This document shows positions 45,011 through 60,893 of a DNA stretch of 64,000 bases, piece after piece. Each line of letters begins with the position of its first letter. The stretch's first letter is position 1. The notes below the pieces were generated by a model that saw only the letters and a list, made by a program, of their open reading frames with translations, was not told the DNA's origin and searched no databases. Position numbers and translations under genes: made by a program. The DNA lies in NCBI GenBank assembly GCA_033816765.1, contig CM066288.1, positions 2,914,001 through 2,978,000 of the forward strand. The letters run 5' to 3'. Source of the stretch: Nothopassalora personata. Lineage: Eukaryota; Ascomycota; Dothideomycetes; Mycosphaerellales; Mycosphaerellaceae.

Positions 45011-45254
45011 GCGGAAGCCTGGAGGTGTAGGTATCTCAATATTCACATTCGAGGTGTCGACATCCGAGGTGTCGACATCCGAGGTGTCTGCTTTCACGTA
45101 ACGAGGTGTCTACAATCCACGTGTCGAGGTATCTACAATCGAGCTCTCTACATTCGACATTCGAAATTCGACATTCGAGATTCGACATGCCGTAAATATA
45201 CTAGGAGCCGCCAAGATTGGCCAAAATTAGCTGCTCCTAGTATATTTATAGCAT
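45011..45254 (+). repeat. Left terminal inverted repeat
   Basis: About 244 bp whose reverse complement is at 60671-60893. The outer part (from GTATCTCAATATTCAC, 45031) has several copies of a CGAGGTGTCGACAT-like subterminal motif and is not RIP-depleted of CA/TG. The inner part is a palindrome (TAAATATACTAGGAGC ... GCTCCTAGTATATTTA). Differences from the right copy are mostly single bases. Confidence 0.85.
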
Positions 45255-45630
45255 CGTGAACTTCTAAGGAGCAGCTTAGGTTATTAATCGTAGATTTCTA
45301 AGGAGCTGCTTATTAACCGTAAACTTCTAAGGAGCTGCTTATTAACCGTGAACTTTTAAGGAGCTACTTAAGTTATTAACCGTAAACATACAAGGAGCTA
45401 CTTAAGTTATTAACCGTGAACTTAACCGTAAACTTCTAAGGAGCTACTTAAGTTAGTAACCGTAAACATATAAGGAGCTGCTTAAGTTATTAACCGTAAA
45501 TATATAAGGAGCTACTTAAGTTATTAACCGTAAACATATAAGGAGCTACTTAAGTTGTTAACCGTAAACTTCTACGGAGCTACTTATTAACCGTAAACAT
45601 ATAAGGAGCTACTAGTCCTCGCTGTTCCTT
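45255..45630. repeat. Tandem array of the CCGTAAAC...AAGGAGC motif
   Basis: About eleven imperfect units of 29-45 bp, each with (C)CGTAAAC then TTCTAAGGAGCTACTT or ACATATAAGGAGCTACTT and often AAGTTATTAA. The same core appears in reverse orientation in the array at 52510-52880. Confidence 0.85.
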
Positions 45631-52509: not shown

Positions 52510-52880
52510 CGGCTCTACTCCTTAAAAGTTTATAGTAGTATGTCGTGCTCCTTAAATGTTTACGGTGTCGTGCTCCTTAAAAGTTTACGGTAGTAGTATC
52601 GTGCTCCTTAAATGTTTACGGTATCGTACTCCTAGAATGTTTACGGTGTCGTGCTCCTTAAAAGTTCACGGTAGTAGTATCGTGCTCCTTAAATGTTTAC
52701 GGTATCGTGCTCCTAGAATGTTTACGGTATCGTACTCCTAGAATGTTTACGGTATCGTGCTCCTAGAATGTTCACCGTGCCGTATCGTGCTCCTTAAAAG
52801 TCTAGGACGAGCGTATCGTACTCCTTAGAAGTATAGGGTGCGGCGTATCGTGCTCCTTAGAAGTCTAGGGTGCGGTGTAT
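52510..52880. repeat. Tandem array of the core motif, inverted orientation
   Basis: About twelve units of 25-31 bp such as TCGTGCTCCTTAAATGTTTA followed by CGGTA or CGGTAGTAG; the last units diverge to CTTAGAAGTCTAGGGTGCGG. This is the reverse complement of the core of the 45255-45630 array. Confidence 0.9.
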
Positions 52881-53441: not shown

Positions 53442-53446
53442 ACGAC
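53442..53446. other. 5-bp target duplication (ACGAC), left copy
   Basis: ACGAC immediately before the LTR; the second copy is 60174-60178. Rejoining the flanks at this site restores the reading frame of the interrupted transposase relic. Confidence 0.9.
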
Positions 53447-53643
53447 TGTTAAGGGGATGTCGCAATGTATAGCACGCCCACGACCTGCCAGTCGTAGATG
53501 AACTAATTCTTGCCTTTTGTTCAAGACGCATCGCGCGTCGCAAGGTGTACTCATGCGTGTCACGTGCGGCTTGGCAGCCGGTCGCGACCGCATGTCACAT
53601 GCAAGGCCACATGTAGGGGTTAGCCACTGGGCTGCCCCTTACA
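53447..53643 (-). repeat. LTR (3' LTR in element sense)
   Basis: 197 bp, matching 59977-60173 at every base I compared. Imperfect terminal inverted repeats TGTTAAGGGG / CCCCTTACA. Confidence 0.97.
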
Positions 53644-53647
53644 ATTG

Positions 53648-53658
53648 CCTCCCCTCCC
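53648..53658 (-). other. Polypurine tract
   Basis: GGGAGGGGAGG on the element strand, four bases before the 3' LTR; the normal site for priming plus-strand DNA synthesis. Confidence 0.8.
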
Positions 53659-53816
53659 GTGCGAGCTGTCCTCAGCTCGCTAGTTGCTACGTAGAGGCTC
53701 CTATGTACTTCCAGAACCATAGTTGCTGTGCGGCCCACATGCGGGTTGCGTGCGTGTCGTCATGTAGGTGTAGGTGAGTGAGGCTTGGTTGCCATGCCGA
53801 CGCAGCTGGTTAGGGG

Positions 53817-53824
53817 CATAAAAC
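53817..53824 (+). promoter_or_regulatory. TATA-like box of the antisense gene
   Basis: CATAAAAC, ~125 bp before the ATG at 53948, followed by a C/T-rich tract and an (ATC)7-like run just before the start. This is a common arrangement for a fungal promoter and suggests that the antisense gene has its own promoter inside the element. Confidence 0.4.
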
Positions 53825-53947
53825 TCCAGCCCAACCCAGCCCTTTCTCAGCACGCTCCCCAGCTCATCACCTTCGCCACACCACCACCACGCACCCGCAC
53901 CGCACCATCATCGCAAGCGCCTCGCCAGCATCATCATCATCATCATC

Positions 53948-54718
53948 ATGTCGGCCGTGCCCTCCTCGCCGCCATTCTCTGGCCGCTCCGCCTCCTCCAG
54001 CAGCACCAGCAGCGACAGCACCACCAGCGCCGCAGAAGACGAGCGCCGCCAGGCGGCTCTGGTGCGCGACGCACCCAGAACGCCTGGTGGTCGCAAGCGA
54101 CCAGCATCACCCTCGCAGCCACCAACGCCCTCGCCAGCCACCAAGCTCTCGCAGAGAATCAACATGTGCATGCGGTGCCTCCCGTACTTCGTCAGGGGTA
54201 AGTCTCCACGCGCGTCGCCTGCGATTCGCATGCTAACCACTTGCTAGACGAGGCCGATGACTGTGATAGTGTCACCACCGGCGAGCTCCTGAAGAAGTGT
54301 GGCCGCTGCAGGCGCAGCAAACACAGCTGCGTGCCCAACACCAGCCACGCCATCGCCTCGCTGGTGAGCCGCCTGCGCGCCGCGCGGTCCCAGCGCGACT
54401 TCCTCACGGCCATGATGGGCCAGGCGCCCACAGACCTCCAGCAGCAGGAGCTGGTGGAGCAGATCCGCCTGTGTGCCCAGCTGGGCAACGACATCAAGGA
54501 GGTAAGTCGCTGCTTCGCTCGTGCGAGTCGACTGCTACTCGCGGGGGAGGGCTCTAGTGCGTCCCCTGTGCTTCGGCTGACCCTTCCTATAGGCCATCAG
54601 GCAGTTCAATGCCTACAAGCACAAGCGTGCCGGGGAGACCCGCATGCGTGCCTCCGCCGCCGCCGCCACCACTGCCGACCAGGCATTCTTGCCTGAGTCA
54701 CTGCGTGACGACAACTGA
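53948..54718 (+). CDS. Antisense six-cysteine zinc-cluster-like protein carried by the chromovirus
   Basis: Exons 53948-54197, 54248-54501 and 54593-54718, with introns of 50 nt (GTAAGT...GCTAG) and 91 nt (GTAAGT...CTATAG, CTGAC branch site), join in frame to 209 residues on the strand opposite gag-pol, between pol and the 3' LTR. The N-terminal ~65 residues are Ser/Pro-rich. Then follow six cysteines, C-x2-C-x11-C-x11-C-x2-C-x6-C: MCMRCLPYFV in exon 1 and DDCD, KKCGRCRRSKHSCVP in exon 2. The last three match half of a Zn2Cys6 cluster (CxxCRRxKxxC). A helical stretch (FLTAMMGQAPTDLQQQELVE, IRLCAQLGNDIKEAIRQFNA across the exon 2/3 join) ends in an Ala-rich tail. Introns in the antisense sense show that it is transcribed separately. 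Function unknown; a nucleic-acid-binding role is inferred. Confidence 0.8.
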
Positions 54719-54852
54719 GGCGCTCGCCTCACACGCTGCTCGCGGGCTCCTCGCCTGCTACCACTCTGCGTGGCCCCTGGTGGGCGCGCCACTCTTCAGC
54801 TTTTGTTTTGTTTATAGTTGAGAAAAGTTTTGTTTGTGCTCCAGTGCCAGTC

Positions 54853-57800
54853 TCATTTGCTTCTCCTTGACGCCTCATAGCCGGCTACCATGCGATCCGC
54901 ATTCGCGAGGCCCTCCGCCGGTTCCCAGCTGTTGTACTCCTCTGGCCAGTCCTTCCACTGGACTAGATACTGCAGCTTGCCCTTGCGCTTACGCCTATCC
55001 AGCACTGCCTCTACCTCATACTCTCCGTCCTCATTAGCTAGAGGGGGTACGGGTCCATCCTCATCGCTACCGATATACGGCTCGAGGAGAGAGACATGGA
55101 AGACGTTGTGGAGCCCTGAGTCGGCTGGTAGCGCTAGGCGGTACGCCTGCGAACCGACAGCGTCCGTAATGCGGTATGGGCCGATGAACTTCGGACCCAT
55201 CTTCTTCTTTGGCACTGCCAACTTGAGGTTCTTCGTTGACAACAGGACTAAGTCACCTACGCGGTAGGTCTTGGCTTGGTGGGTCTTGTTGTAGTAGCGA
55301 GCCTGGCTTTCTGCTGCAGCCTTCCATCGCTCCTCGAGTGTAGCGCGTAGTTTTCGCATGCGACTCGCAGCTGTTACCGCTGCTGGTACTTCCCCCCCCT
55401 GGGTCTCGTCTCGAGATCCAGTTGGTGCAGGGGCAATCTCAGGTCGCCAACCGTGCGCTATTTCGAACGGACTCATCCGCAGTGTTGGGTGGATGCTGTT
55501 ATTAGCTGCGAATTCAGCAACTGCAAGCCACTCAGCCCACTCAGTTTGATTGTCACTGCAGTAACAACGAAGGTATTGTTCGAGGGTTTGGTTTGCCCTC
55601 TCAGTTTGGCCGTCAGTCTGAGGGTGAAAGGCCGTGGATAGCTTGCGCTTCACACGCGCCTCGAAGCAGAAGTCACTCCAAAACTGACTAGTGAAGACCG
55701 GACCTCGGTCGCTCACTATGCCTGACGGGACACCATAGTGTCGCACGACTTCGTCTCGCAGGAGCCTCGCAAGCTCCACGGCTGTGCAAGTCTTCGTCGT
55801 CGGGATGTACAAGCTCATTTTTGAGTAGCGATCGACTATCACTAGGATCGCATCATACATGCAACCGGCTCGCGTGCTTGGAGGTAGGTCCGTAATGAAA
55901 TCCATGGTGATTTCCTGCCACGGTCGCTCCGGTCTAGGAAGCGGTTGCAGCTCGCCGTAGGGTCGATGGCGCCTCGCCTTCGAACCCTGGCAGGTTCTGC
56001 AGGCTTGGACGTATTGTTTCACGTCCGTGCTAAGTGAGTCCCACCAATAATTACGTCGCAACAGCTCTTCAGTCTTGGTCCTTCCAAAGTGACCCGCGAG
56101 GACGTCGTCGTGGTGCATGCGAATCAGATGCGACCTGATTGCGTGATCCCTGGGTACCACGATCGCGTCTCCGCAGTACACAAGGTCATCCTTCACATGC
56201 CATCCCTTGGCGTCCCTCGCGCTTGGCGCCTGCGCCAAGCATGCGACACACTGGTCGTCTTGCTGCTGCGCGATCTTCATCAAGAGTGGGATCAACTCAC
56301 CCGTCGAGCTGTAAGCTTGACCCTGTATCACTGCAGCGCACACTGCTGCTGGTAAAGACGGCTTGTCTTGATGGGGAAGGTCACCTCTCCGCATTGCCAT
56401 CGCCGCGCCTATGTCGCCCTGCATCGCCTCGCAGGTGGCAAGCACGCGCTTCACCGTCGGCTCGCTTGTCCCTTCCAGAGACTCCTTCCAGAAAGACAGC
56501 TTACTTTGCAAGGTAGGCAGCAAGTTCGAAGTTTGTTGCGTTATGGCTGCGTAGTCACTGCGTCTCGAAGGCGCGTCGGCTGGGTTAGTCTTACCCGGCC
56601 GATGCTCCACTACAAAATCAAAAGACTGCAGGAACGTAGCCCATCGAGCTTGCCGCCCATTCAGCTGCTTTACTGTCATGAAGCCCTGTAGGTTAGCGTG
56701 GTCGACTAGCACTCGCACCGCATGCGTAGCGCCCTCCAAGTATGGCCTCCAATGCTTGAAAGCCTCAACCACTGCAAGTAGCTCCTGATCGTGCGTCTCG
56801 TAGTTGCACTCAGCTGGTATCATCTTGCGTGAATAGAACGCGATGGGATGCCACTCAGCACCAAACAATTGGGATATGATACCTGCGATCGCGAAACCTG
56901 AGGCATCCGTCTCGACTCGCGTGCGCAGCGCAGGATCGAAGTGCCTAAGTATTGGTGCACCTAAGAATCCGGCCTTAAGCTGTCGAAACGCCTGCTCTTC
57001 GCTTAAGGTCCACGTGAGAGGGCCGTGCTTCTTGCCGTCCTTGGATCCCTTTAGCAGGTCCGTTAGGGGCTTGCAGACCCTTGAGTATCCTTCTATAAAA
57101 CGCCGGTAGAAGTTGCAAAACCCAAGGAAGGACTGGACCTCATGAAAGGTCGTAGGTGTAGGCCATTCCTCGATAGCGGCTACCCTGCTCCTGTCCATCG
57201 ACACGCCTGCGGCGCTCACGACAAACCCAAGGAACTCTGCACTCTCCTGGAAGAAGTGACACTTCTTAGGGTTTGCGAACAGGGCAAACTTTCGTAGCCT
57301 CTCCAGCACCGCGCGTACGGCTCGCACGTGTGCCTCACGCGTCTCGCTGTAGATGAGGATATCATCTAGGTAGACCACGCAAATGTCATCAACTAAGCCG
57401 GTCAGCGCCTTGTTGATATACCCTTGAAAGGTTGCCGGTGCGTTGGTTAACCCGAACGGCATCACCAGGTACTCGTAGTGTCCGTATCGCGTGCGAAACG
57501 CAGTCTTCCACTCATCGCCTCGCTTAATAGGGATACGATGGTAGGCGTCCTTCAAATCGATTGTAGTGAAGAACCTGGAACCTGATAGCCTATCTAGCGT
57601 CTCGCTGATTAGGGGCAGGGGGTATCGGTTCTTCACTGTAATCTCATTCAGGCCTCTGTAATCAACACAGAGCCTAAGAGTGCCATTCTTCTTTGGCACG
57701 AACAGGATAGGCGCACCCGCCTCGCTTGCGGACCGCCTAATCCACCCCTTCTCCATTGCTTGCGCAAGGTACTCCTTCAAGGCCTCCAACTCAGTCAAGG

Positions 57801-58824
57801 ACTGGTGGTACAGCGGCTTGAAAGGGGGTTTCTTTCCTTCAACGAGATCAATCGCATGCTCAACCCCGTCGGGCATCTTGCGCTTCGCCTGCTCGTTAGG
57901 TGCGTATACATCTCGGAAGTCTGCAAATTCTTCAGGCCACGAGGGGCCCTCTCCTTCAGGTACTGCTGCAGCAATAGCCCGAACACTCATCGCATAAACC
58001 TGCTTTGAGCTCTCGAGATCCTCAAGGAACTCGCGTGCGTCACGCTGCTGAACCGCAGGCGTCTCTGCACCGTAGTACCACTGGTCATCCTTATCGGCCT
58101 TCACTATCCGATTACGATGCCGCCAGGGTCTACCCAAAATCACTGATGGCCTACCCATAGGCACCGCGTAGCAGATGGCGTCACTCACGCGCTCTACTCC
58201 CGCGTCATCAGCGAGTCGCAGCCGAACCGCAAAGGCGCCGTAGCAATACCCTGGGTCATGCGCATACGACTCTAACTTCGGCAGCCTTGCCCCATCAATG
58301 GGTTGCATTTGATGTCGGAGTACATACTCATACGACACTAGGCTGAGATCCGCACAGTCATCCAGGAGAAACGTGGCCTCGCGAAAGCCCTCACGAGTCT
58401 CGACTGCGCCTCGCAAGTGACGCGCTGGACACGCATCCACTCGCCTCAAGGGGTCGACTTCAGGAAAACTCGGACTCAGGAGCGACCCACTTATGGTCCT
58501 CTGCCTTTTCCCTGGTCGCTGCGATGGACACACATCCACTCGCCTCAAGGGGTCGACTTCAGGAAAACTCGGACTCAGGAGCGACCCACTTATGGTCCTC
58601 TGCCTTTTCCCTGGTCGCTGCGATGGACACACATCCACTCGCCTCAAGGGGTCGACTTCAGGAAAACTCGGACTCAGGAGCGACCCACTTCTGGTCCTCT
58701 GCCTTTTCCCTGGTCGCTGCGATGGACACACATCCACTCGCCTCAAGGGGTCGACTTCAGGAAAACTCGGACTCAGGAGCGACCCACTTCTGGTCCTCTG
58801 CCTTTTCCCTGGTCGCTGCCCTTC
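54853..58824 (-). CDS. pol: Chromovirus Pol polyprotein
   Basis: Frame open from 58824 to the stop at 54853, in -1 relative to gag, so it is probably made by frameshifting. The translated frame from the first near-start (58746) is 1297 residues. Order: repeated 33-residue linker (1-100); protease-like region with FLLDDCADLSLVSYEYV (~125-140) where the usual Asp-Ser/Thr-Gly is Asp-Asp-Cys; RT with VVYLDDILIYS (~459); RNase H with VETDASGFAIAGIISQ (~609); integrase zinc finger (HHDD..GHFG..C..CQG, ~872-905); DDE core (ITMDFITDLP, DRGPVFTSQFW, HPQTDGQTERANQTLEQY); C-terminal chromodomain (YLVQWKDWPEEYNSWEP, ~1262-1280). No premature stops. Chromodomains in such integrases can direct insertion to H3K9-methylated chromatin. 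Confidence 0.95.
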   Translation of the reverse strand, partial: EGQRPGKRQRTRSGSLLSPSFPEVDPLRRVDVCPSQRPGKRQRTRSGSLLSPSFPEVDPLRRVDVCPSQRPGKRQRTISGSLLSPSFPEVDPLRRVDVCPSQRPGKRQRTISGSLLSPSFPEVDPLRRVDACPARHLRGAVETREGFREATFLLDDCADLSLVSYEYVLRHQMQPIDGARLPKLESYAHDPGYCYGAFAVRLRLADDAGVERVSDAICYAVPMGRPSVILGRPWRHRNRIVKADKDDQWYYGAETPAVQQRDAREFLEDLESSKQVYAMSVRAIAAAVPEGEGPSWPEEFADFRDVYAPNEQAKRKMPDGVEHAIDLVEGKKPPFKPLYHQSLTELEALKEYLAQAMEKGWIRRSASEAGAPILFVPKKNGTLRLCVDYRGLNEITVKNRYPLPLISETLDRLSGSRFFTTIDLKDAYHRIPIKRGDEWKTAFRTRYGHYEYLVMPFGLTNAPATFQGYINKALTGLVDDICVVYLDDILIYSETREAHVRAVRAVLERLRKFALFANPKKCHFFQESAEFLGFVVSAAGVSMDRSRVAAIEEWPTPTTFHEVQSFLGFCNFYRRFIEGYSRVCKPLTDLLKGSKDGKKHGPLTWTLSEEQAFRQLKAGFLGAPILRHFDPALRTRVETDASGFAIAGIISQLFGAEWHPIAFYSRKMIPAECNYETHDQELLAVVEAFKHWRPYLEGATHAVRVLVDHANLQGFMTVKQLNGRQARWATFLQSFDFVVEHRPGKTNPADAPSRRSDYAAITQQTSNLLPTLQSKLSFWKESLEGTSEPTVKRVLATCEAMQGDIGAAMAMRRGDLPHQDKPSLPAAVCAAVIQGQAYSSTGELIPLLMKIAQQQDDQCVACLAQAPSARDAKGWHVKDDLVYCGDAIVVPRDHAIRSHLIRMHHDDVLAGHFGRTKTEELLRRNYWWDSLSTDVKQYVQACRTCQGSKARRHRPYGELQPLPRPERPWQEITMDFITDLPPSTRAGCMYDAILVIVDRYSKMSLYIPTTKTCTAVELARLLRDEVVRHYGVPSGIVSDRGPVFTSQFWSDFCFEARVKRKLSTAFHPQTDGQTERANQTLEQYLRCYCSDNQTEWAEWLAVAEFAANNSIHPTLRMSPFEIAHGWRPEIAPAPTGSRDETQGGEVPAAVTAASRMRKLRATLEERWKAAAESQARYYNKTHQAKTYRVGDLVLLSTKNLKLAVPKKKMGPKFIGPYRITDAVGSQAYRLALPADSGLHNVFHVSLLEPYIGSDEDGPVPPLANEDGEYEVEAVLDRRKRKGKLQYLVQWKDWPEEYNSWEPAEGLANADRMVAGYEASRRSK
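58428..58819. repeat. 99-bp tandem repeat at the gag-pol junction (about 4 copies)
   Basis: The unit CTCGCCTCAAGGGGTCGACT recurs at 58441, 58540, 58639 and 58738, a strict 99-bp (33-codon) period. The copies are nearly identical (TTATGG or TTCTGG variants). Being a multiple of three, copy-number change keeps the pol frame. Each copy encodes QRPGKRQRTISGSLLS in the pol frame and contains a GGGAAAA on the element strand. Confidence 0.97.
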
Positions 58825-59957
58825 TCAGTCAGAGCCTTCGCAGCGTCTACCCTGCGAACCGCTTGCGCGCCACGGTCCTTCCACAGGTGCCTGTTCGGGC
58901 AATCCGTCTTAATGTGACCCTTCTTATGGCATCCATAGCACTCCGCTTTGGTCCTATCAAAGGTCACAGACGATCCGCCGGCGTCCCGCTGGTAACTCGC
59001 ACCCGGGTCGCGCGACGCCTGACTATGCTTCTGCTGCTTCGAGCCACGATCGCTTCGCCCTTGGTCGCCCTCAGTCTCTCGCCTGCGGCGACCATGCTGC
59101 CCGCGGTCGTGCCCTCCGCTGCCACGCTCCGTGCTTTCAATGCGCGAAGCCAGGATCACCAGTTCCTCTCTGGTTGTTGGGATGTCATGAAACTTGACGA
59201 TTGCGGACCGCAGGCCAGGCGCAAGCTTAGCGAGCATATGTCGCACGCGTTGCGCCTCCGTATAGTCCCCCAACTGATCCTCCATGACATCCAGCTCAGT
59301 CGCAAACTGACGCACTGTCTGGTTGTCCTTCTGTTTCACCGCCTCATACTCCAACATCACGTTGAGCACGCGGTTCACAGGATCACCGCATGCGTCTCGA
59401 CAGAACTCCTCAAAGTCCTGGTATGTATACCCTTTAAGGTCAAGGACGCTATGGTTGGCGTGCCATCGCTCACTTGCCTCTCCGCTTAGGTACATAACCC
59501 CATACAGGACCTTTGACTCGTTCGTCGCATACGTGCCGCCTGAGAGGGCAAAGACAAGAGAGAGCTCCCTTAGGAATACCCGTGCTTTCTTGATCGAGTC
59601 CCCTCTAAAAGGCGTAGGTTCTTTGAGACGCAAACGTGTCGCATGCGATGCGACCGCGCCTCGAGCTGCGATATCATCGTCAGTTACTACAGATGGAGGA
59701 GGGGGAGGGGGAGTAGGGGATAGTTCTCCGCCGGATTCGCCCTGAGGGTCCGCCGGCGGCACGCTTGCGTCCCGCAAGATCTCCAACTGTTCAATCTCCC
59801 TCTGTATCTCCTTCTCCTCAACCTCTGCCCGAAGGGCATCCCTCCTTGCGACTAAGGCTGCACGCCTCGCTTGTTGCTGGGCCCTAGGGCTCAGGGGAGC
59901 CGCAAGCGTAGCGCTGCTGTCGTCGCGTTCGGACTCCATGGCGTGTATGGATTGCAA
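58773..59957 (-). CDS. gag: Chromovirus Gag
   Basis: 394 residues. N-terminal coiled stretch (QQQARRAALVARRDALRAEV), Pro-rich linker, then a Ty3-type capsid region (~100-245; FRGDSIKKARVFLRELSLVF, YLSGEASERWHANHSVLDLK, VLNVMLEYEAVKQKDNQTVR) and a basic linker. A CCHC zinc knuckle, CYGCHKKGHIKTDCPNR (~341-357), binds RNA during packaging. It ends in GKGRGPEVGRS, inside the first copy of the 99-bp repeat. A second in-frame Met (MESERD, residue 7) has a better context (gccATGGAG). Confidence 0.93.
   Translation of the reverse strand: MQSIHAMESERDDSSATLAAPLSPRAQQQARRAALVARRDALRAEVEEKEIQREIEQLEILRDASVPPADPQGESGGELSPTPPPPPPSVVTDDDIAARGAVASHATRLRLKEPTPFRGDSIKKARVFLRELSLVFALSGGTYATNESKVLYGVMYLSGEASERWHANHSVLDLKGYTYQDFEEFCRDACGDPVNRVLNVMLEYEAVKQKDNQTVRQFATELDVMEDQLGDYTEAQRVRHMLAKLAPGLRSAIVKFHDIPTTREELVILASRIESTERGSGGHDRGQHGRRRRETEGDQGRSDRGSKQQKHSQASRDPGASYQRDAGGSSVTFDRTKAECYGCHKKGHIKTDCPNRHLWKDRGAQAVRRVDAAKALTEKGSDQGKGRGPEVGRS
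58803..58809 (-). other. Candidate -1 frameshift heptamer GGGAAAA
   Basis: In the gag frame the site reads caG GGA AAA ggc, an X-XXY-YYZ heptamer about 28 bases before the gag stop, and a slip of one base back enters the pol frame, which opens at 58824. The family of -1 slippery sites is well known from retroelements; use here is inferred. Confidence 0.6.
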
Positions 59958-59964
59958 CGAAGAG

Positions 59965-59976
59965 AAGAATTAGAAC
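59965..59976 (-). other. Candidate self-priming primer-binding site
   Basis: Directly next to the LTR the element strand reads GTTCTAATTCTTC rather than the TGG of a tRNA-type site. Its CTAATTCTT (59965-59973) is complementary to AAGAATTAG inside the LTR (60033-60041), as in Tf1-type elements that prime with their own RNA 5' end. Confidence 0.5.
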
Positions 59977-60173
59977 TGTTAAGGGGATGTCGCAATGTAT
60001 AGCACGCCCACGACCTGCCAGTCGTAGATGAACTAATTCTTGCCTTTTGTTCAAGACGCATCGCGCGTCGCAAGGTGTACTCATGCGTGTCACGTGCGGC
60101 TTGGCAGCCGGTCGCGACCGCATGTCACATGCAAGGCCACATGTAGGGGTTAGCCACTGGGCTGCCCCTTACA
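59977..60173 (-). repeat. LTR (5' LTR in element sense)
   Basis: 197 bp, the partner of 53447-53643. Confidence 0.97.
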
Positions 60174-60178
60174 ACGAC
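60174..60178. other. 5-bp target duplication (ACGAC), right copy
   Basis: Matches 53442-53446. Confidence 0.9.
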
Positions 60179-60515: not shown

Positions 60516-60670
60516 AGTAGCGATGTGTTGTGTTCGTGTTCTCGTAGGTCGCTGCTGCTGTGCGGGTGCTCGTAAACGGTAATAGTCGTGTAAAGAGGGA
60601 TAGGCGTATAAAGAGGTTATTGTTATTACTAAGATTCGAGGTCCTATCTAGTCACATAATGTAGATGACT

Positions 60671-60893
60671 ATGCCGTAAACATACTAGGAGCAGCTAATA
60701 TTGGCCAGTTTTGGCGGCTCCTAGTATGTTTACGGCATGTCGAATGTCGATTGTAGATACCTCGAATGTGGAGACCTCGAATGTGGACACCTCGATACGT
60801 GGATTGTAGACACCTCGTTACGTGGATTGTAGACACCTCGAATGTCGACACCTCGAATGTGAATATTGAGATACTACCACTTCTAGGGCACCA
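60671..60893 (-). repeat. Right terminal inverted repeat
   Basis: About 223 bp, the inverted partner of 45011-45254. Inner palindrome GCCGTAAACATACTAGGAGC with its inverse (60673-60737), then five or so CCTCGAATGTNGACA-like units out to GTGAATATTGAGATAC. Confidence 0.85.

Follow-up and report, generated by a model that had tools for sequence, protein, structure and literature searches.

Antisense genes carried by LTR retrotransposons have been described in fungi and in plants. The fungal example is brtn, the antisense gene of Boty-like elements (Zhao et al. 2011, Virology 417:248, cited in PMC8365987, PMC7264820 and PMC4227169), which occur in Botrytis cinerea and Sclerotinia sclerotiorum (PMC4227169, PMC7264820), and a transcript similar to BRTN is recorded from Monilinia (PMC5987419). 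A 2020 review of antisense additional genes in plants, which also notes Boty, describes what antisense extra genes do in LTR retrotransposons as still unknown (PMC7264820). The plant genes Grande gene23 and those of RIRE2, Retand and PvRetro13 have the same position and orientation as the gene described here, and the Grande gene has its own upstream promoter and a nuclear product; the plant ORFs differ in their hosts and in having no clear similarity to database proteins, and no zinc cluster is mentioned among them in the available text of that review (PMC7264820). The word 'antisense' is absent from the searchable text of two fungal LTR surveys (PMC3248453, PMC5445492). A literature search for antisense genes of zinc-cluster type carried by fungal LTR elements, or for self-regulation by them, gave nothing closer among the results listed, most subscription journals lying outside that search. 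HBZ of HTLV-1 has a spliced form and its product regulates the provirus; it shares with the present case an antisense gene started at the 3' end, while protein and element are unrelated and the analogy is functional only. The antisense promoter of retroviral genes such as HBZ lies in the 3' LTR (PMC7264820). The initial annotation of the locus knew of no zinc-cluster version in fungal chromoviruses; antisense genes in fungal chromoviruses have been known since brtn in 2011, and it is the introns, the cysteine module, the selection evidence and the genomic context that appear new here.

The window analysed was a stretch of 64,000 nucleotides from Nothopassalora personata, which contains a Ty3/Gypsy LTR retrotransposon whose sense strand is the minus strand. 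The LTRs of this element are identical over 200 bp (53445–53644 and 59975–60174). The features of the element and its antisense gene, in window coordinates, are:

53442–53446, no strand: left copy of the target-site duplication ACGAC, from the flanking bases
53447–53643, minus strand: 3' LTR, TG...CA unit, within the 200 bp identical to 59975–60174
53644–53947, plus strand: leader and putative promoter region of the antisense gene, with the TATA-like CATAAAA at 53818–53824
53648–53658, minus strand: putative polypurine tract adjoining the 3' LTR (CCTCCCCTCCC on the plus strand)
53948–54197, plus strand: exon 1, with the ATG, a Ser/Pro-rich N-terminus and the first two cysteines
54198–54247, plus strand: intron 1, 50 bp, GTAAGT...CTAAC...TAG, kept in the older copies L064 and L066
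54248–54501, plus strand: exon 2, with the other four cluster cysteines, the basic KCGRCRRSKHSC and a probably helical tail (helices from a low-confidence model only)
54502–54592, plus strand: intron 2, 91 bp, GTAAGT...CTGAC...TAG
54593–54718, plus strand: exon 3, the last exon of the short form, with the scar left by deletion of 167 bp that the long form retains
54853–58746, minus strand: pol open frame, 1297 aa, with RT, RNase H, integrase, SH3 and chromodomain (Pfam)
58773–59957, minus strand: gag open frame, 394 aa, with the CCHC knuckle CYGCHKKGHIKTDC read by eye
59977–60173, minus strand: 5' LTR, by identity to the 3' LTR
60174–60178, no strand: right copy of the target-site duplication ACGAC, from the flanking bases

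All five domains of the window pol scored above their Pfam cut-offs. The chromodomain at the integrase C-terminus (PF00385, 57.2 bits against a cut-off of 25.1) identifies the element as a chromovirus, and the additional gene lies between pol and the 3' LTR, opposite gag-pol, in the position of antisense additional ORFs. A chromodomain gag-pol with one additional antisense gene between pol and the 3' LTR is also the layout of Boty (PMC4227169, PMC7264820). The start of the window pol frame contains 99-bp in-frame tandem repeats (58323–58916), and the pol open frames of several other copies have lengths of 1257, 1290, 1323 and 1356, in steps of 33 aa. Two inverted repeat arms (45018–45262 and 60663–60887), 86–90% complementary and approximately 15.4 kb apart, enclose the element and perhaps represent an older element into which others inserted. 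Irregular tandem arrays of short units (such as CTCCTTAAATGTTTACGG, on one or the other strand) were seen within AT-rich sequence at 45247–45605 and 52543–52785.

Joining the three exons of the antisense gene (53948–54197, 54248–54501 and 54593–54718) gave a single frame of 209 aa, while retention of intron 1 would stop the protein after 99 codons. The re-derived exons and frame bore out the coordinates, strand and exon junctions of the initial annotation, together with its C-x2-C-x11-C-x11-C-x2-C-x6-C pattern and its TATA-like box; the CTGAC branch site that it proposed is present in intron 2, and intron 1 has CTAAC. A gene-model rule requiring a GTRAGT donor, a CTRAY branch site and a YAG acceptor, fixed after the gene had been seen, recovered the 209-aa two-intron ORF on the plus strand of the LTR–pol region and no comparable two-intron ORF on the minus strand. 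Applied to both strands of 300 dinucleotide shuffles, 600 strands in all, the rule yielded no comparable model. The G+C content of the coding sequence was 60, 58 and 83% at codon positions 1, 2 and 3, with 58–63% in the introns. This contrast between codon positions was never matched when the coding bases were shuffled 10,000 times. The third-position value of 0.83 compares with 0.63 for gag and 0.62 for pol of the same element. Synonymous codon choice scored against the gag and pol table of the element gave 0.098 for the true frame and 0.138 for one reverse frame. The length of the ORF is unconvincing taken alone, because the same GC-rich stretch also holds minus-strand ORFs of 101 and 110 aa. 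The introns can persist since the genomic RNA of the element is the opposite strand, on which they are not splice signals, and the expectation that antisense introns outlast retrotransposition is sound by established biology. The search for precisely spliced retrocopies at junctions 1 and 2 used exact patterns in which RIP changes were tolerated at a subset of bases, and gave no matches.

The host genome, 54.5 Mb in 40 contigs, was searched for copies of the gene. These searches used the gene as query, so that copies without it are invisible to the counts that follow. A DNA search, in which 40 of 312 candidates were scored, gave 23 near-identical copies of a short form (the window included), two near-identical copies of a long form and 15 loci at 88–91% identity. 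A protein search gave 201 matches; among those listed, at least 94 places had stop codons, nearly all TAG, within the second-exon match. A further search gave at least 34 other places close to the RIP-mutated copy L064. The initial annotation had regarded absence of the ORF from other copies as evidence against the gene, and the 25 near-identical copies and at least 94 stop-broken places are the reverse of such an absence. The 15 diverged loci carried, per approximately 1.7 kb, 121–181 differences that were C>T in CA or G>A in TG, consistent with RIP, with 4–11 other C>T or G>A changes and 3–9 changes of any other type. The small number of differences outside RIP indicates that the family is young beneath it, and dN/dS within the family is therefore uninformative, as the copies differ at a handful of sites apart from RIP.

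The three-exon gene of the window is not the ancestral form. Both near-identical copies without RIP that carry the long form (L014 and L015) have four exons, and approximately 167 extra bases in the last exon are found in these two, in all 15 RIP-mutated loci (L016–L030, five of the alignments read base by base) and in both copies of an older subfamily; all 17 RIP-mutated copies inspected thus have the longer four-exon form. The long form of L014 encodes 245 aa, has three introns and ends with the same stop and the same last residues as the short form. Its third intron is 59 bp long (GTGAGT...CTAAC...CAG), so that the 167-bp loss of the short form comprises this intron and 108 coding bp (36 codons), with the frame kept. 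As the long form is found in copies without RIP, in RIP-mutated copies and in the older subfamily, the short form is derived: it arose by in-frame loss, has since multiplied to no fewer than 23 copies and accounts for 23 of the 25 near-identical ones. Individual copies do decay, as seen from a 1-bp deletion in exon 2 of L015 and a 91-bp deletion in L009. The latter equals intron 2 in length and was considered as a spliced copy; it lies at 54184–54274, where it takes out intron 1 and coding sequence on its flanks. The young copies L006, L007 and L009 share a deletion of approximately 62 bp just past the antisense stop (window 54724–54786).

The older, RIP-mutated subfamily is represented by L064 (contig C5) and L066 (C6), and both keep all three introns. 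L064 was considered as an intron-less copy; its shortness results from a private, frame-breaking 80-bp deletion in exon 1. The selection test was a simple binomial on these two loci in one comparison with L014, excluding C>T and G>A changes, and the expected synonymous share of 18.9% was obtained from the codons of this gene with a 2:1 weighting of transitions. Ten of the 20 remaining coding differences shared by L064 and L066 were synonymous (P=0.0016), and the 20 fell 2, 8 and 10 at codon positions 1, 2 and 3. At codons 2 and 197 it is L014 itself that departs from the RIP-mutated main-family copies; omitting these codons gave 9 of 18 synonymous (P=0.0028). The coding indels common to both loci were one of −3 bp and one of +3 bp, and the introns contained four shared differences in 200 sites. 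The initial annotation had offered selection or very recent acquisition as reasons for an undamaged gene. The first is supported by the synonymous excess and by the two shuffling tests (0 of 600 strands and 0 of 10,000 GC3 shuffles); the second is contradicted, because the older RIP-mutated subfamily already possesses the gene with its three ancestral introns. It can be held with high confidence that the antisense gene is a real protein gene, and it is very probably under purifying selection and older than the current burst.

The cysteines of the window protein are spaced by 2, 11, 11, 2 and 6 residues. The spacing of the Zn(II)2Cys6 family is C-x2-C-x6-C-x5..12-C-x2-C-x6..8-C, from which the window protein departs, and in these fungal regulators the cysteine cluster is followed by a long charged stretch. 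The protein resembles them in its six cysteines, arranged as two C-x2-C-xn-C halves and accompanied by basic residues; it differs in its 11-residue first loop, in having the basic residues in the second half, in having no further recognised domain and in being carried by a transposon. No match to Pfam Zn_clus (PF00172, cut-off 21 bits) was obtained. The description of the protein as zinc-cluster-like therefore stands for the six-cysteine pattern, as a resemblance only. The PDB gave no match for the window protein and the viral contigs no relative of it, while a structure model of exon 2 alone was of low confidence (pLDDT 62.5).

A second six-cysteine family, DUF3716 (PF12511), has a similar spacing (C-x2-C-x10-C-x10-C-x2-C-x8-C in L035) and was found antisense in a Copia LTR element. 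It did not match the window protein at an E-value of 10, and none of the 38 places in the genome matched by its model was a listed copy of the window family when compared by eye. Of the 36 lower-scoring matches, the 18 compared (L033–L050) are related repeats, L035 at 74%. At C11:446190-453298 (L036 and L051), 176-bp terminal direct repeats bound a RIP-mutated 7.1-kb element with a Copia RT (RVT_2, 96 bits) on one strand and DUF3716 on the other, between the RT and the far repeat; the DUF3716 match scored 22.5 bits (cut-off 22), and 27.2 bits in the genome-wide search. Two stop-free matches 3.7 kb apart (L031 and L032, C13:778985-779140 and 782846-782989) are possibly host genes. A literature search, with most subscription journals outside it, found no paper containing the word DUF3716.

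Antisense six-cysteine genes were also found in other element families of the same genome. A search with the SH3_Tf2-1 profile, in which 150 of 1542 candidates were scored, gave further Gypsy groups with long intact pol frames, and nine representatives (L052–L060) were picked by open-frame length and read downstream of pol. In five of the nine (L053, L056, L058, L059 and L060) an uninterrupted antisense ORF encodes 167–213 aa from the chosen start, with at least six patterned cysteines and a charged tail that is probably helical by our own reading, coiled-coil matches being below cut-off. A chromodomain above the Pfam cut-off was present in exactly these five; among the other four it was below cut-off in two and absent in two. 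No antisense six-cysteine ORF was seen in those four, in one of which (L055) the stretch is taken by the gag of another element and is uninformative, and intron-containing genes are possible in all four. L061 was added as a sixth representative with both pol and the antisense gene.

Three of the proteins (L056, L059 and L060) have the spacing C-x2-C-x6-C-x8-C-x2-C-x6-C, exactly that of Zn(II)2Cys6 proteins, followed by a long charged stretch as in the fungal regulators. L053 has a longer first loop (13 residues) and L058 a longer second loop, each with an adjacent cysteine pair that makes the count ambiguous. Scores against Zn_clus were below cut-off for L058, L060 and L056 (11.4, 8.4 and 7.7 bits) and absent for L053 and L059; the L059 protein gave non-significant matches only in the PDB (best E 0.13). 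The loop lengths of the window protein lie near the range of these proteins, and its 11-residue first loop lies within it, given the 13 residues of L053. Alignment of the window protein with the other families using hhalign covered 14 columns, at a score reached by 1 of 150 full shuffles and by 37 of 150 shuffles with the cysteines fixed, so that it does not exceed the cysteine-fixed background.

The antisense proteins are far more divergent than the sequences around them. Over the last 330 bp of pol the six families are 81–97% identical (15 pairs) and over the R/U5 of the LTR 92–100% (10 pairs, L056 left out), whereas their antisense proteins are 25–53% identical, or 23–53% when two gag-only families are included. 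L053 and L061, for instance, are 96% identical in the pol tail and alike at all 163 R/U5 bases compared, but 34% identical in the antisense protein, and among L053, L059 and L061 antisense identities of 32–39% stand beside pol tails and R/U5 at 94–100%. For the antisense genes of L056 and L059, dN was 0.50 and dS 1.88, and many other pairs were saturated. Because synonymous divergence between the antisense genes is high or not computable, block exchange by recombination appears to fit better than fast evolution alone. In L056 and L059 the antisense gene and the pol 3' end overlap tail to tail within coding sequence (pol-sense coordinates 341–456 and 398–456, respectively).

The gag-only elements, L062 (C2:1333000-1335200) and L063 (C4:2869300-2871500), have LTRs and an antisense six-cysteine gene and no pol; a 347-aa gag frame ends beside the end of the antisense gene. 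Over 1192 aligned bases including gag they are 97% identical, while their antisense proteins are 39% identical. A search with the L059 antisense protein, in which 150 of 791 candidates were scored, was compared with the SH3 search taking every listed row that had no more than one stop (61) and 44 chosen rows of the latter. An SH3 match of pol on the opposite strand lay within 1.5 kb of 41 of the 61. Among the other 20, 17 were stop-free and fell by identity and frame length into the L062 and L063 groups, of which L062 and L063 themselves were read, and three had no pol SH3 match among the rows used. The end of the window pol gave no DNA match to the pol of the other antisense-bearing families. 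L065, a related pol lineage next to L054 that looks RIP-mutated, yielded no antisense homologue at the DNA level over 2.4 kb, nor any cysteine motif. The pol of the eight other antisense-bearing families is, as we take it, reminiscent of Boty, and their antisense genes are likelier relatives of BRTN than the window gene.

In the eight representatives (L053, L056 and L058–L063), TGTTACGG lies 65–95 bp upstream of the antisense ATG. It was taken as the putative start of the LTR, from 3' LTRs alone, because a purine-rich tract precedes it; its distance from the ATG would place the antisense promoter at the 3' LTR or within it. The U3 regions are rich in repeated words. Repeated 6-base words exceeded all 500 dinucleotide shuffles in seven of the eight, with L058 reached by one; for 7-base words L053 was reached by 1, L063 by 22 and the other six by none of 500. 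The U3 of L056 contains a tandem duplication, and that of L063 was ended at the locus end for the word counts and shortened for the correlation test. The words are largely family-specific: TGATCA occurs seven times in L059 and once in L063, ACGACC five times in L053 only, and CGTCGC six times in L060 and twice in L058, while CAGATC occurs across families (eight times in L056, five in L062, two in L063, one in L061). It is possible that the repeated words form arrays of binding sites. Antisense protein identity and U3 word similarity across the eight families showed no significant correlation (p 0.07–0.15). In the LTR of the window element, word repetition is no greater than in shuffled sequence, its level being reached by 96 of 500 shuffles at k=6 and by 241 of 500 at k=7, and the binding-site argument therefore cannot be extended to it.

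The gene structure, its retention in copies, the frame-preserving indels, the synonymous excess and the same layout in other families are observations. The best explanation for them as a whole, to which we give an even chance, is a spliced antisense accessory gene encoding a small DNA-binding regulator of its own element; DNA-binding self-regulation as such is put slightly below even. A promoter between the 3' LTR and the ATG would drive a transcript away from the LTR, converging on pol, and splicing would join the exons. The predicted product begins with a Ser/Pro-rich segment containing a basic patch, continues with a six-cysteine zinc-cluster-like module that may bind zinc, and ends in a probably helical tail. 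This protein would most likely re-enter the nucleus and bind DNA or chromatin, and may there regulate in trans the expression or integration of its own element family.

A tentative extension, possible rather than probable, is that an antisense gene for a zinc-cluster DNA-binding protein and a U3 with its iterated targets form an exchangeable identity cassette by which each family controls itself. Recombination would swap the cassette between families while pol and LTR R/U5 stay near-identical, gag-only parasites would keep it, the window gene would be an intron-bearing version in a separate pol lineage and the Copia DUF3716 gene perhaps a third. The pairing of an own protein with an own site would resemble plasmid replication iterons and phage immunity repressors. 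As a self-regulator the cassette is the most promising reading and draws mainly on the other families, where support is partial.

It is also conceivable, if unlikely, that the protein targets the host, countering heterochromatin, RIP or RNA silencing and diversifying with the host and rival elements. The low identity of the antisense proteins of L053, L059 and L061 between near-identical flanks is what would be expected of a conflict factor, and the genome is rich in RIP-mutated copies; however, the gene did not protect the family that carries it against RIP, as the at least 94 stop-broken places and at least 34 others near the RIP-mutated L064 make plain. Distinctly unlikely is a product that is the antisense transcript itself, pairing with the genomic RNA and tuning silencing or copy number with the ORF incidental. 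Given its position, such a transcript would be the complement of the genomic RNA in its 3' part, and regulation based on dsRNA has been proposed for such antisense genes (PMC7264820, available text). Against this stand the synonymous excess and the two shared in-frame indels, the in-frame loss of 36 codons together with a whole intron, the GC3 bias and the larger synonymous than non-synonymous divergence between other antisense genes (L056 and L059).

A captured host gene riding as a passenger is very unlikely. Three ancestral introns and a GC3 well above those of gag and pol do resemble a cellular gene, but the signs of selection span two subfamilies, the presence of counterparts in other families suggests that such elements carry the gene as a regular component, and no host paralogue was seen among the matches listed, which were filled by element copies. 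That the ORF and its splice signals arose by chance because the region is GC-rich is hardly credible, since the other long ORFs on both strands, the youth of the copies and a codon-usage score that does not single out the frame are outweighed by the 600 shuffled strands, the codon-position bias, the third intron lying in frame in the ancestral form and the synonymous excess.

RIP can be used as a filter in arguing that an antisense extra gene is a selected protein gene. Eight more natural variants are available in the genome of N. personata, several of them between near-identical flanks and two in minimal elements consisting of LTR, gag, antisense gene and LTR, and most of the eight adjoin family-specific repeated words; with matched flanks and repeated words together, the function of these genes is directly testable. 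The separate regulation of co-resident families might be explained by these antisense genes.
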